In this document: piece after piece, positions 14,883-22,670 of the stretch
Numbering within the stretch: the stretch's first letter is position 1
Layout of the letters: each line of letters begins with the position of its first letter
Source: Bacteroidota bacterium
Lineage (GTDB): Bacteria; Bacteroidota; Bacteroidia; Cytophagales; Cyclobacteriaceae
Assembly (NCBI GenBank): GCA_016866385.1
Contig: VGMU01000002.1
Location: forward strand, 1-64,000
Length of the DNA stretch: 64,000 bases
Direction: 5' to 3'
Translations under genes and position numbers: made by a program
Notes under the pieces: model-generated
Seen by the model: only the letters and a program-made list of their open reading frames with translations
Databases searched by the model: none
What the model was told of the DNA's origin: nothing

Positions 14883-15462
14883 TTTCCATAAAACCAATGA
14901 GTTGATCACCCACCTGTACAGGCCCGACTCCTGCAGGGGTTCCGGTGTAGATTAAATCTCCTTTTTTGAGGGTAAAATATTGGGACACGTAGGAAATGAT
15001 GGTTGCAAAATCAAATAGCATCAAGCTGGTATTCCCTTTTTGCCTGATCTCTCCATTTACCTCCAGGTGGAAATTGATGTCCTTCAAATTTTTGAATTCA
15101 TCAACAGATTTGAATGCTCCCACGGGTGCGGAGCCATTAAACGCCTTGGCAATCTCCCAAGGCAGTCCTTTGGCTTTGCATTGGTCTTGGAGGTCGCGGG
15201 CAGTGAAATCTATACCCAATCCAATCTCCTCCACGTAGCGGTGAGCAAATTGAGGCTGTATGTACTTTCCTTCTTTGGATATTTTGAGCACCAGCTCGAT
15301 TTCGTGGTGGATATTTTTTGAAAAATCTGGATAAAAAAAGGGAGCATCGTTCTTCAACAGCGCCGTCTCTGGCTTGAGAAACACCACCGGTTGCCCTGGC
15401 TGCTCATTTTTCAATTCTTCGATATGGGCCACATAATTGCGGCCAATGCAGATGATTTTCAT
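14851..15462 (-). CDS. fumarylacetoacetate hydrolase family protein
   Basis: MKIICIGRNYVAHIEELKNEQPGQPVVFLKPETALL...HHEIELVLKI...GLGIDFTARDLQ...GDLIYTGTPAGVGPVQVGD. Confidence 0.95.
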   Translation of the reverse strand: MKIICIGRNYVAHIEELKNEQPGQPVVFLKPETALLKNDAPFFYPDFSKNIHHEIELVLKISKEGKYIQPQFAHRYVEEIGLGIDFTARDLQDQCKAKGLPWEIAKAFNGSAPVGAFKSVDEFKNLKDINFHLEVNGEIRQKGNTSLMLFDFATIISYVSQYFTLKKGDLIYTGTPAGVGPVQVGDQLIGFMENEKMLHVEIK

Positions 15463-15490
15463 CGTAGCGTTGGAATTAAAGTCTATTCAT

Positions 15491-16180
15491 TTAAAAACTA
15501 ATTTTTTTGATTTCGTCCAGCAACTTCTCCATCCATTGCGAGTAGATCCCTGGTGAGGGATGGAGCTGGTCTGCCACTACCCCCTCCGGCAATCCCCCCT
15601 GGATTCGGTACTCCTCAGTGATGTCTAGAAACCGTATGCCGTGTTTGTCGCAAATTTCTTTTTTGCTTCGATTGTAGTCATCAATTGCCTTGGCCACTTG
15701 CTTGGAATCCACCCCTTTTTGAATGGCAAAGGGAGTGACCCCCCAATCTGGAATGGACAAGACCATCACCCGATCTTTATTTCCTCTTGCAAAGGCAAGG
15801 GCTCGCAGCAACATTTTTTCAAAATCCACAGCAAAAGATTCTACCGATCGACCGCGGTACTGGTTATTTACCCCAATGAGCAAAGTTACTAGGTCGTAGC
15901 CTGCTGCGTCCGTGGCAGTGGCTTGAATTCCCGCTTCCAGTTCGTCCACAGTCCAGCCTGTCTTTGCAATGAGCAGGGGAGGCGCAAAGGGCCTATCGGA
16001 GGCGACATTCCATGCCTGGACGAGCTGCATAGGATATCGAGCGCTTGACTCCACGCCTTCTCCTATGGTATAGCTATCCCCCAAAGCCAGGTATCGTAGC
16101 TGGAGATGTTGGGCAGATGCTGTCATGGGGCTGAAAAAGGCTAGAAAAAGGAAAAAGGAGAGTAGGGTTTGGATATTCAT
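15491..16180 (-). CDS. SGNH/GDSL hydrolase family protein, exported
   Basis: LRYLALGDSYTIGEGVESSARYP (block I), LIGVNNQYRG (block III), DQLHPSPGIYSQW (block V). Confidence 0.92.
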   Translation of the reverse strand: MNIQTLLSFFLFLAFFSPMTASAQHLQLRYLALGDSYTIGEGVESSARYPMQLVQAWNVASDRPFAPPLLIAKTGWTVDELEAGIQATATDAAGYDLVTLLIGVNNQYRGRSVESFAVDFEKMLLRALAFARGNKDRVMVLSIPDWGVTPFAIQKGVDSKQVAKAIDDYNRSKKEICDKHGIRFLDITEEYRIQGGLPEGVVADQLHPSPGIYSQWMEKLLDEIKKISF

Positions 16181-16184
16181 GATG

Positions 16185-17228
16185 TTAACTGGAAGTAAAC
16201 ACGTTTTCCAACATGGTGATGGTGCCAGAATTGGCATTCATCCTCACTTTTGCTCCTATGGGCAAAATAAATTGCTTGGGAATGTGGCCTATCATGGCTC
16301 CGATGTAAGCAGGAATTCCCAAGGGAAGAATGTAATGGTCCATGAGTTGATCTACGGTAAATGCCCCGTATCCACTGCCCGGTTTGCATTCGGAGCATTG
16401 TCCGAATATAAAGCCTTTTATTTTGGACAAGGTTCCATTGAGCTGCAGCGTACTCATCATGCGATCGATGCGGTAGGGGTCTTCTCCTACATCTTCTGTA
16501 AATAATATAGAATCTTGAAAATCAGGGTAATATGGTGTTCCAGATAAAGCAGTTAATACGGTTAAATTTCCTCCCAAAATTTTTCCGTCTACGCTACCGG
16601 AGCTGAGGGTTTGAATTCTATTTCCCTTGGCTACCAAATCGTCTCCTTTTCCAATTTGATTTTTGAAAGAAACCAGTTTCTGTTCAAAAAAGACCTGTTG
16701 AAATTGGCTAACGTGATAGCTATTCCAGCTGCCTGATCCATTGGGACCATGGAAGGAAATCAAGCCGGTTTGACTTTGAATGGCACAGTGCAAGGCGGTA
16801 ATATCGGAATATCCCATCAGCGCTTTGGGGTTGGCTTTGATCACCTGGTAATCGAGTAGGGGAAGAATCCTAGCTGCTCCAGATCCGCCCCTTAAGCAGA
16901 CGATGGCGCTGATTTCTGGATCGGCAAACATGGCATTGAGATCCTCAGCTCTTTCTTGATCTGTACCTGCCAGATGCCCAAAGCGATTTTTTAAATTTTC
17001 ACCCAGTTTGACTTCAAGTCCTAAGGCTTCCATGGCCTCTTGGGCATAGGTAAACTCCATGCGATCGGCAGTAGCAGCAGAAGGGCTTACGATTCCTACT
17101 TTTTGCCCTTTTTGAAGGGCTTTTGGTCTCAAGGTGCCTGAGGCGGGGGAGCTGGCAAAATCAAAGGATAGAAAGGGGCCCGCCGTAGCGAGGAGGCCTA
17201 AGGATTTTAAAAATGCTCGGGTGTGCAT
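16185..17228 (-). CDS. S66 family LD-carboxypeptidase
   Basis: VGIVSPSAATADRMEF, AIVCLRGGSGAARILPLLDY, ALMGYSDITALHCAI, FHGPNGSGSW, KILGGNLTVLTALSGTPY, LFTEDVGEDPYRIDRM. Confidence 0.93.
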   Translation of the reverse strand: MHTRAFLKSLGLLATAGPFLSFDFASSPASGTLRPKALQKGQKVGIVSPSAATADRMEFTYAQEAMEALGLEVKLGENLKNRFGHLAGTDQERAEDLNAMFADPEISAIVCLRGGSGAARILPLLDYQVIKANPKALMGYSDITALHCAIQSQTGLISFHGPNGSGSWNSYHVSQFQQVFFEQKLVSFKNQIGKGDDLVAKGNRIQTLSSGSVDGKILGGNLTVLTALSGTPYYPDFQDSILFTEDVGEDPYRIDRMMSTLQLNGTLSKIKGFIFGQCSECKPGSGYGAFTVDQLMDHYILPLGIPAYIGAMIGHIPKQFILPIGAKVRMNANSGTITMLENVFTSS

Positions 17229-18580: not shown

Positions 18581-18966
18581 GGTTCTTTGTGATTTTTTTT
18601 GACAAGTAAAATAAGGGAAAGCCACCCCAAGATAAAGGCCAATCCACCCAAAGGGGTAATGGCTCCTAACCAAGTAATCCCCGTGAGAGACAAAAGGTAA
18701 AGGGAGCCTGAAAAAATGAGAATTCCCAATCCCATTAACCAGGCAGAAGTTTCTAATCCTTTCCAGTGGGGCTTGATTAAGGCTAAAATTCCTATACCTA
18801 AAAGTGCCAGGGTATGGTAGAAATGATAATTTACAGCCGTTTCAAATGTGTCCAATCTCCCATTTTTTGTTAGAAGGCTCTCCAAACCATGGGCTCCAAA
18901 AGCTCCCAATCCTACCGCCAATACGCCAGAAATGCCTGTTGCTATGAGAATTTTAGTGGCTTTCAT
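18577..18966 (-). CDS. DUF423 family membrane protein
   Basis: ISGVLAVGLGAFGAHGLESLLT...FETAVNYHFYHTLALLGIGIL...GSLYLLSLTGITWLGAITPLGGLAFILGW. Confidence 0.95.
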   Translation of the reverse strand: MKATKILIATGISGVLAVGLGAFGAHGLESLLTKNGRLDTFETAVNYHFYHTLALLGIGILALIKPHWKGLETSAWLMGLGILIFSGSLYLLSLTGITWLGAITPLGGLAFILGWLSLILLVKKNHKEP

Positions 18967-19643
18967 GAGGTAGGGGATGTACGTGATCCAAAGATAGAAG
19001 ATCCAATCCGAACCATGGTGCTGCCTTCTTCTTGGGCAATAAGGTAATCACCGCTCATGCCCATAGAAAGTTCCTTGAGGTCTACAAAGGAGGGGAGGGC
19101 TCGTTTTTTTAATTCCTCAAAAAGTTGTTTTAGCCCTTTAAACTCTTCTCTGATTTGGGACTGATCCTCGGTAAAGCTAGCCATTCCCATCAATCCTTTT
19201 ACTTGAACATGGGTCAGGTTGCTAAATTCAGGGCTATCCAACATGGAATCTAGTTCCTGTCTGTCAAAGCCAAACTTACTCTCCTCGCTAGCAATATGGA
19301 TCTGAAGTAAAACAGGAATGAGCCTTTGATTTTTTTTGCCTTGCTTGTCAATTTCTAGCAAGAGCTTGAAGGAATCTATCCCATGAATCAGGTGTATAAA
19401 GGGGGCAAGGTATTTGATTTTATTGCTTTGCACATGCCCAATCATATGCCAGCGGATATCTGCAGGCAGTTGTGCTTGTTTGGCCACCAACTCCTGTACT
19501 TTATTCTCTCCAAAATCCCTTATTCCGGCGTCATAGGCTGCTTGCAAATCTTCTAGGGGTTTGGTTTTGCTGACTGCAATAAGCAGGCAATCGGGACGAA
19601 TAAACGTACTTTTTACAAGGTCTAGCTTAGCTTGGATATCCAT
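18963..19643 (-). CDS. YggS family pyridoxal phosphate homeostasis protein
   Basis: LIAVSKTKPLEDLQAAYDAGIRDFGENKVQELVAK...RWHMIGHVQSNKIKYLAPFIHLIHGIDS...LSMGMSGDYLIAQEEGSTMVRIGSSIFG. Start at MDIQAKLDL (19643); stop overlaps the DUF423 start (ATGA). Confidence 0.93.
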   Translation of the reverse strand: MDIQAKLDLVKSTFIRPDCLLIAVSKTKPLEDLQAAYDAGIRDFGENKVQELVAKQAQLPADIRWHMIGHVQSNKIKYLAPFIHLIHGIDSFKLLLEIDKQGKKNQRLIPVLLQIHIASEESKFGFDRQELDSMLDSPEFSNLTHVQVKGLMGMASFTEDQSQIREEFKGLKQLFEELKKRALPSFVDLKELSMGMSGDYLIAQEEGSTMVRIGSSIFGSRTSPTS

Positions 19644-19890
19644 TACTGGAAACTTTCGGATGGAATAATTTCCAAATATACTCCAAGAGGCGGTACTTTT
19701 GAAGATGCGAACAGCAATTTTAGAAGGAGTGGAAACGGGACTGGTGCTATCCACCTTGATTGGACCTGTATTTTTTGCGCTCATTACCACCAACATGAAT
19801 CAAGGGATGAAGCAAGCCTCTTTTTTGGCCTTGTGAGTTTTTTCGAGTGATTTACTCTATATTTTTTGCACCTATTTTGGCATACATGTC

Positions 19891-20508
19891 TTGATGACTC
19901 TTCCCTACTTTGAAAAGTGGCTATGGGAAATTACTCGATTTTATCTTGAAGCATTAGCCGACTTTGAGTCAGATGATTACTCTTTCACGTTTAAAAATAA
20001 TGGTGATCGGTACACCATGAATAAACTACGTACAGATACAAAACACTATCGGATTCAAAGAGATGTTGCTCAAAATTTATTAAAAAAGCACCATCAGAAA
20101 AATAAAAAAGATAAACTAGACAAATTGGAAAAAACAGACTCAGCATTCATGCAACGTAAATTCACAAAATTTGAGCGTTGGGCTGATGATAAAATACGGG
20201 CACTGGAGATTGATCTCAAAGAAGATCGTCAAAAGATCAGGGAATTAGAGCGAGAGCAACAAAAAGTAAACATCTTAGGCGAAGAGTTGATCGAGTTAGA
20301 AGAAAAAACATCTAAGATAAAGCACAAATAAAATAGGCTTAGACAAGAGATTTATGACCGCGAAGATGAGGTAAATGAACAACGCGATACCATGATCAAG
20401 GAAGCTAGGACTAAACTAACCAGAACGATAAAAGAGGAAGAATTAGCGAAGAAGCAAAGTGAGTTAGAAAGAAGGCTCTTAGAATTAGAATCCAAGCTTA
20501 AGGATTAA
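19891..20508 (+). pseudogene. C-terminal remnant of a SNF2/DISARM-type helicase-like coiled-coil protein, interrupted by in-frame TAA at 20329-20331
   Basis: ORF 19891-20331 ends at TAA; the same frame continues as NRLRQEIYDREDEVNEQRDTMIKEARTKLTRTIKEEELAKKQSELERRLLELESKLKD* to 20508. FERWADDKIRALEIDLKEDRQKIRELERE...DREDEVNEQRDTMI resembles the helicase C-terminal pattern LDRWADDLK.LE.E..ELDRQIKELRR...D.QDEID.QRD.LI (recalled, not searched). Confidence 0.6.
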
Positions 20509-20608: not shown

Positions 20609-21670
20609 ATGAAAAAAGCAAGCCTCGTTTGGATCATCGTTCTTTTGTCTACAGTAGCCTGGGCGCAAGTTCCTCAAAAAATGAGCTACCAAGCCATCAT
20701 TCGCAATGCGAGCAATGCAGCGAATGTTACGGGCACTGTAGCAGTTGCAAACGGTGGAACGGGATTAACAAATATCACTTCAGGTCAAATTCCGTTTGGG
20801 AATGGGACTAGTGCTATAGGTACAAGTTCAAACTTAACCTGGGATAATTCTACAGGTAGTTTAGGTATTGGCACCTCTACTCCTGCTAGCTCCGCTAAAC
20901 TAGACGTATCATCTATTACCCAAGGCTTTTTACCTCCGAGAATGACCCAGGCCCAACGTAACGCTATTTCAAGCCCTGCCTCCGGTTTAATCATTTGGTG
21001 TACTGATAGTGGCACTAGAGGGCAGTTGCAGGTCTATGATGGGGCCGGTTGGACAAATATGATCGGAGGCTCTTCTAACTTTGCCTGTGGCACAAGTTCG
21101 GTTACATTTACGTTTAGAGGTGCCTCTGTCACCTATGGAACTGTTGTTGGCGCTGCCGGCAAATGTTGGCTAGATCGAAACCTTGGGGCAACCAGAGTGG
21201 CTACCTCATCGAACGATGCGGATGCCTATGGCGATTTATTTCAATGGGGAAGAGGTGATGAAGGACATCAATTACGTAACAGTTCAACTACTGGTACCCT
21301 GAGTACTGGCAACACCCCTGGCAATTCAAATTTTATCATTTGGACTTTAGCTAGCGGTGACCAAAACTGGCGAAGCACCAACTACAACTACCTCTGGCAA
21401 GGCATAAATGGCACCAATAACGTATGCCCCAGTGGTTGGAGAATTCCAACTGAGCAGGAGTGGTTTGAAGAGAGACAAGCTGGATTTCCTGCCAACAAAT
21501 TAGCAGCTGGTTACAGCTCTGTTCTCAAATTGCCAGCGGCTGGAATTCGGACATCCAATGGCTCTGTATCCAGTCAAGGCTCCTTCCTCCATTATTGGAG
21601 CAGTACTACCTCTGGATCTGCAAATTCTTGTGCAGTAGTAATGAGTACTGGATCTCCTGATTCCAGTTGA
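20609..21670 (+). CDS. FISUMP-domain (Fibrobacter succinogenes major paralogous domain) secreted protein, C-terminus apparently frameshifted
   Basis: GKCWLDRNLGATRVATSSNDADAYGDLFQWGRGDEGHQ...CPSGWRIPTEQEWFEE...YWSSTTSGSANSCAVVM; the expected ending (FGMSVRCIKD*) is in another frame at 21687-21719. Confidence 0.85.
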   Translation: MKKASLVWIIVLLSTVAWAQVPQKMSYQAIIRNASNAANVTGTVAVANGGTGLTNITSGQIPFGNGTSAIGTSSNLTWDNSTGSLGIGTSTPASSAKLDVSSITQGFLPPRMTQAQRNAISSPASGLIIWCTDSGTRGQLQVYDGAGWTNMIGGSSNFACGTSSVTFTFRGASVTYGTVVGAAGKCWLDRNLGATRVATSSNDADAYGDLFQWGRGDEGHQLRNSSTTGTLSTGNTPGNSNFIIWTLASGDQNWRSTNYNYLWQGINGTNNVCPSGWRIPTEQEWFEERQAGFPANKLAAGYSSVLKLPAAGIRTSNGSVSSQGSFLHYWSSTTSGSANSCAVVMSTGSPDSS

Positions 21671-21813
21671 TTGTCGTGGAAGGGTTTTCGGTATGTCCGT
21701 TCGCTGCATTAAAGATTGATACGCTCACCTTACAAACAGATAACTTGAAAAGGGTTACAGAATATCTCCTACCTTGTAAAACATTCGCAACCACAGAAAA
21801 ACTAGCCCCCATT

Positions 21814-21924: not shown

Positions 21925-22269
21925 ATGACAATTCTTATAATTACATCTCAGCTTATCGTGGCAATATCAGTTGCCTATGTTTGGGTTTTTCGATATGAAG
22001 TAATCACAAAAGAATTTAAAGAATTCGGATTGAGTGATTTAACCCGAACCTTTGTTGGAACGTCTAAAATTTCTTTAGCCACTTTATTAATAGCGGGTAT
22101 TTGGCATCCTCCATTAATTTTGATACCTTCTATTCTAATGGGTTTATTTATGTTAGCAGCTCAATATTACCATTTCAAAATAAAAAATCCCTTCATTAAA
22201 CATTTGCCATCTTTAATTTTCTTGATTTTATGTGCCTTCATTGCATTAGTTTCAATGAAGGTAATTTAA
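21925..22269 (+). CDS. DoxX-like small membrane protein
   Basis: Four predicted TM helices; ...GTSKISLATLLIAGIWHPPLILIPSILMGLFMLAAQYYHFKIKNPFIKHLPSLIFLILCAFIAL. Confidence 0.65.
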   Translation: MTILIITSQLIVAISVAYVWVFRYEVITKEFKEFGLSDLTRTFVGTSKISLATLLIAGIWHPPLILIPSILMGLFMLAAQYYHFKIKNPFIKHLPSLIFLILCAFIALVSMKVI

Positions 22270-22271
22270 AC

Positions 22272-22652
22272 ATGAATTATTTATTGCTTTCTTGTGTTTT
22301 ATTTTCAAGCTTGTCTTTTATGGGATATTCTATTTCATATTTCATTTCACCATATATGAAAAGTGAATTTGAACGATTCAACTTAAAACATCTTGGTCTC
22401 TTTATAATTATACTTGAAATACTTGGTGCTTTTGGATTATTAGTAGGTTTATTTTTCAAACCTATTTTGTTAATATCATCTGGTGGACTTTCCTTGTTGA
22501 TGTTTTTTGGTTTCATGACAAGACTTAAAATAAAAGATAGTTTCTTGGTTTCTTTTCCAGCAATATTTTTTATGATTTTAAATGGATATATATTTTATTT
22601 GGGAATTGGATCTTCTCTGCATTCTTTGATGACATACATTTATATTCCTTGA
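22272..22652 (+). CDS. DoxX-like small membrane protein
   Basis: MNYLLLSCVLFSSLSFMGYSISYFISPYMKSEFERFNLKHLGLFIIILEILGAFGLLVGLFFKPILLISSGGLSLLMFFGFMTRLKIKDSFLVSFPAIFFMILNGYIFYL; ATG 2 nt after the previous stop. Confidence 0.65.
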   Translation: MNYLLLSCVLFSSLSFMGYSISYFISPYMKSEFERFNLKHLGLFIIILEILGAFGLLVGLFFKPILLISSGGLSLLMFFGFMTRLKIKDSFLVSFPAIFFMILNGYIFYLGIGSSLHSLMTYIYIP

Positions 22653-22670
22653 ACGGAACTAGAGGAAATA

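Follow-up and report, generated by a model that had tools for sequence, protein, structure and literature searches.

The locus examined here, positions 19891-20508 of a 64,000-nucleotide stretch of Bacteroidota DNA (the window), lies between yggS and ald and begins with an open reading frame (ORF) ending at an in-frame TAA. Beyond this stop, the same frame is open for a further 58 codons (20332-20505), up to the next TAA at 20506-20508; the coordinates of the ORF and of its continuation proved to be as originally predicted. The locus is composed of pieces of different genes, which are listed with their neighbors in Table 1. In the remainder of the segment up to ald, the usual-looking end of the Fib_succ_major gene, FGMSVRCIKD, sits in another frame. 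The G+C content is 35.5% in the helicase fragment and 34.8% in intact helicases, compared to 43% in yggS and 49% in ald.

Table 1. Features of the locus and of the segment up to ald, in window coordinates. G005 is the nearest relative found; L003 and L004 are two loci encoding intact helicase relatives.
Feature	Position	Strand	Description
LysE-type exporter, N-terminal remnant	19705..19914	+	own in-frame TGA at 19834-19836, upstream of the junction; last ~nine codons (LMTLPYFEK) begin the ORF
ORF	19891-20331	+	146 aa from TTG start to TAA 20329-20331; opening ~nine codons LysE, not helicase
Left junction, 9-nt near-match	19906..19914	+	G005 LysE TTCGAAAAG, window TTTGAAAAG, helicase relatives TTYGAGAAA
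Helicase fragment 1	19915..20082	+	about residues 669-724 of 944-aa relative; blastn 71-72% to L003/L004, 69% aa
Internal deletion point	20081..20086	+	about 276 nt (92 codons) gone, in frame; present in every intact relative aligned
Helicase fragment 2, C-terminal coiled coil	20084..20445	+	about residues 816-936; blastn 77% to L003/L004, 80% aa
In-frame TAA	20329..20331	+	sense codon at same position in all intact relatives aligned
Terminal tail	20446..20508	+	20 codons + stop; unrelated to helicase
Fib_succ_major surface-type gene	20609..21711	+	Pfam 2e-9; frameshift near 3' end by three-frame translation
Two overlapping DoxX-like membrane protein genes	21925..22652	+	28% G+C; right-hand portion of the segment that G005 lacks
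Right edge	22639..22664	.	homology with G005 resumes on ald side

The exporter junction and the sister genome

G005 carries at the same site a whole LysE-type exporter gene (Pfam LysE, 2.7e-30), followed by a DUF6992 gene and then ald. Its DNA is 92% identical to window positions 18900-19926, and its LysE protein is 87% identical to the window's over 94 residues. Because this homology to the intact gene at the corresponding site is unbroken, the 5' part of the ORF is assigned to LysE; in almost every relative examined, LysE and yggS are linked. We read the junction from a DNA alignment of the window, G005 and two intact helicases: pairwise homology to the G005 exporter ends at a near-match in which LysE reads TTYGAAAAG and the helicases read TTYGAGAAA, and the LysE frame enters the helicase frame without a shift. 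The replaced segment measures about 2.7 kb in the window versus about 1.0 kb in G005, and the surrounding sequence showed no clear repeats of the kind that would mark insertion of a mobile element.

As the assembly is fragmented (136 contigs), an error of local assembly at one of the junctions keeps a small probability. The fragmentation and the deviating G+C content of the inserted DNA would also suit a chimera in which a helicase piece of another organism was joined into the contig. However, both flanks lie on one contig in the expected order, as in G005 and others, and a chimera alone would yield neither the internal deletion and stop codon nor the unrelated tail and LysE's own stop. We consider an assembly chimera highly improbable.

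A truncated C-terminal piece of an SNF2 helicase

Four loci related to the fragment, L002 to L005, were identified among 84,980 species genomes scanned, and blastn of the fragment against a database of the four gave E values down to 1e-75. In each of them the match forms the C-terminus of a far longer ORF, of 944 aa in L003 and L004 and 947 aa in L005; that of L002 is cut by its contig. Window positions 19915-20445 correspond to about residues 669-936 of an intact SNF2 helicase of ~944 aa, and what the window copy retains is thus homologous to the C-terminal region in full-length members of this helicase group. The closest known system is that of operons pairing an SNF2 helicase with type III Mod and Res, exemplified by L003, L004, G274 and E. 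coli plasmid pEC316_2; protein identity to the four nearest helicases is 67-79% over 178 aligned codons, coiled-coil end included. Since the C-terminal ends encoded by L002 to L005 align without a gap across the window TAA, so that both sides of the stop match one helicase stretch in four independent loci, the open frame beyond the stop is more than chance. By itself, the fragment gave only sub-threshold noise against Pfam and PADLOC, with no DrmD match; because it rises above no family threshold alone, the helicase family is recognizable only through the full-length relatives. These alignments, together with matches of an intact relative to SNF2 and DrmD models, bear out the original prediction of a remnant of a large defence-type SNF2 helicase, namely of its C-terminal coiled coil.

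Compared with its closest relatives, the window copy lacks ~665 N-terminal residues and ~92 internal codons, carries an in-frame stop and a different tail, and is unaccompanied by the type III Mod and Res genes that adjoin those helicases. The SNF2 and Helicase_C motor domains, both found in the intact relative, are absent from the window copy, which thus makes no helicase. The tail replaces the conserved helicase end FT(V/I)SFE(I/V/L)I of intact relatives, and a search of the window's own genome and 60 genus genomes found no source for its 21 codons (stop included). Truncation, deletion and an in-frame stop relative to intact homologs, with the short form conserved in no relative, mark this copy as a pseudogene. 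It had been predicted to be a decayed helicase tail interrupted by a TAA, as opposed to a stand-alone family of ~147-aa proteins. The remnant status held, all relatives found being full length and the stop position being sense in the intact ones; the damage, on the other hand, exceeds a single TAA: the copy is also truncated, has an internal deletion and a foreign tail, and is joined to the interior of another gene.

Substitution patterns bear on the history of the fragment. Differences between the window copy and L003 number 30, 12 and 92 at codon positions 1, 2 and 3, respectively, and this third-position excess indicates that the fragment descends from a gene long under coding selection. 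At otherwise invariant sites, unique amino-acid changes amount to 17 of 123 in the window copy (stop included); the corresponding figures for two similarly diverged relatives are 8 of 114 and 10 of 116. This excess points, modestly rather than strongly, toward relaxed selection, and decay is therefore probably recent.

Two readings would assign the locus a product. According to the first, the 146-aa coiled-coil protein arising from the LysE-helicase mosaic is expressed and has been retained in a new role, such as that of a helicase decoy or partner. The 146-aa ORF is indeed open, and the frame is preserved through two joins. However, we found no short-form homolog, only full-length relatives, and the fragment did not turn up in any further genome of the genus that was searched (36 for the fragment, 60 for its 3' part). 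The TTG start, moreover, lies inside LysE sequence, downstream of the LysE nonsense codon. An AlphaFold model of the intact helicase, built from four sequences with an overall pLDDT of 38 and moderate confidence in the C-terminal helical hairpin alone, the one part considered here, has long helices at residues 812-876 and 881-927. The window TAA would, at that moderate confidence, fall within the second of these and cut the coiled coil. A retained protein is thus very unlikely. According to the second reading, the TAA is read through or recoded to give a 205-aa product, as the in-frame continuation of family-like sequence after the stop might suggest. We give this next to no credence: intact relatives have a sense codon there, the window copy is damaged in several further ways, and nothing else found at this locus suggests recoding. 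The original prediction had already ranked read-through or recoding as the less likely alternative, and the sense codon and the additional damage uphold that ranking.

SNF2-Mod-Res operons and the comparison with DISARM

In seven loci (L002, L003, L004, L107, L108, L022 and L023), genes for a Mod-like methylase and a Res-like protein, both of type III kind, come after the helicase gene. These loci include an IncF plasmid of E. coli and a plasmid of Blastomonas; the partners differ in some other, more distant relatives. Within the class, 8 of 394 other genomes yielded further relatives, each an uninterrupted frame of 953-979 aa. Relatives were also detected on 39 plasmids, mostly enterobacterial, of which 27 are predicted to be conjugative, and none was found when phages and viral contigs were searched with the intact C-terminal part. 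We found no description of a named SNF2-type III system in the open-access literature searched. Judging from its parts, the intact system would use Mod to methylate host sites and Res to translocate on and cut unmodified DNA, and the SNF2 motor would assist by moving on DNA.

Individual operons vary. In L003 (4885-10865), a single operon contains a tandem pair of Mod methylase genes with 72% identity, suggesting a duplicated or alternative specificity subunit. In L004, a McrB-like AAA protein is encoded at 15103-16746, directly 3' of the SNF2-Mod-Res genes. L005 (8842-11227) is another decaying copy: its helicase is whole, but Mod is reduced to about its first 53 residues and Res to its last 159. 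In the window's genome (completeness about 92%), neither a second helicase copy nor Mod or Res homologs were found; by this search, the window copy is not part of an SNF2-Mod-Res operon.

The original prediction had likened the helicase to DISARM DrmD. Models for SNF2, Helicase_C and DrmD all recognize the intact relative P0001, whose best PADLOC match is DrmD (PDLC02619, 2.9e-199). Against NCBIfam DISARM_DrmD_b (NF038318), however, the match, which covers residues 28-671, scores 670 bits with a cut-off of 950, and against NF038317 it scores 246 bits with a cut-off of 610. Judged by these scores, the intact helicase is closest to DISARM DrmD yet appears to be no member; the part retained in the window lies beyond the DrmD match, and the partners of the relatives are non-DISARM genes. 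In the loci with a readable operon, where they were looked for, DrmA, DrmB and DrmC were not seen beside the helicase. The likeness to DrmD was thus a close guess, whereas the assignment to DISARM is unsupported, with a score of 670 against 950 bits and Mod and Res as the usual neighbors.

The yggS-ald interval itself, read in 22 loci of the genus, contains LysE, DUF6992, a small zinc-ribbon-like protein and other genes. Ten variable genes of the interval gave generic TPR matches against PADLOC and no specific defence match; on these grounds, together with the reading of the 22 loci, a defence hotspot at this site was rejected. The proposal that the locus is a hotspot for defence cargo is hence unsupported, and comparing the interval across relatives, the check suggested with it, turned up no defence genes. 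That result also weighs against a formerly complete DISARM island at this site, of which the fragment would be the remnant. Such an island would suit the DrmD match of the intact relative, but that relative falls below the NCBIfam DrmD cut-off and such helicases are usually accompanied by type III Mod and Res, leaving the idea with very little probability.

Other known systems resemble the intact helicase in part. RapA, an SNF2 protein associated with RNA polymerase, acts with RNA polymerase. RapA structures are by sequence the closest solved structures to the motor of the intact relative (E 1e-36), and this motor, the part in common, is absent from the window copy. ARMADA likewise has an SNF2/RapA-like helicase adjoining a DNA methylase, and includes a PglX-like methylase and a YprA-like helicase (PMC12458937); the relatives described here carry type III Mod and Res instead.

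Origin of the mosaic

Taken together, positions 19891-20508 are very probably a decaying pseudogene mosaic in which a C-terminal piece of an SNF2 helicase is joined into a LysE exporter gene. We infer that the window copy yields no functional product. The piece would have come from an SNF2 (DrmD-like) helicase of an SNF2-Mod-Res restriction-type operon and was probably joined into the LysE gene adjoining yggS by illegitimate recombination at the short near-match. The loss of ~92 internal codons and the acquisition of a nonsense codon and an unrelated tail would complete the proposed course of events. Decay is further supported by the neighboring Fib_succ gene, which is likewise broken. Counting against it, neither the LysE-helicase join nor the internal-deletion join shifts the frame, which would happen by chance about 1 time in 9, and the window copy has only a modest excess of unique changes.

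The window copy is an ordinary but well-mapped remnant: a piece of a mobile restriction-type helicase decaying inside a chromosomal exporter gene, with the unbroken site preserved in a sister genome. The more interesting lead is the SNF2-Mod-Res operon of Bacteroidota and conjugative enterobacterial plasmids, which merits a study of its own.
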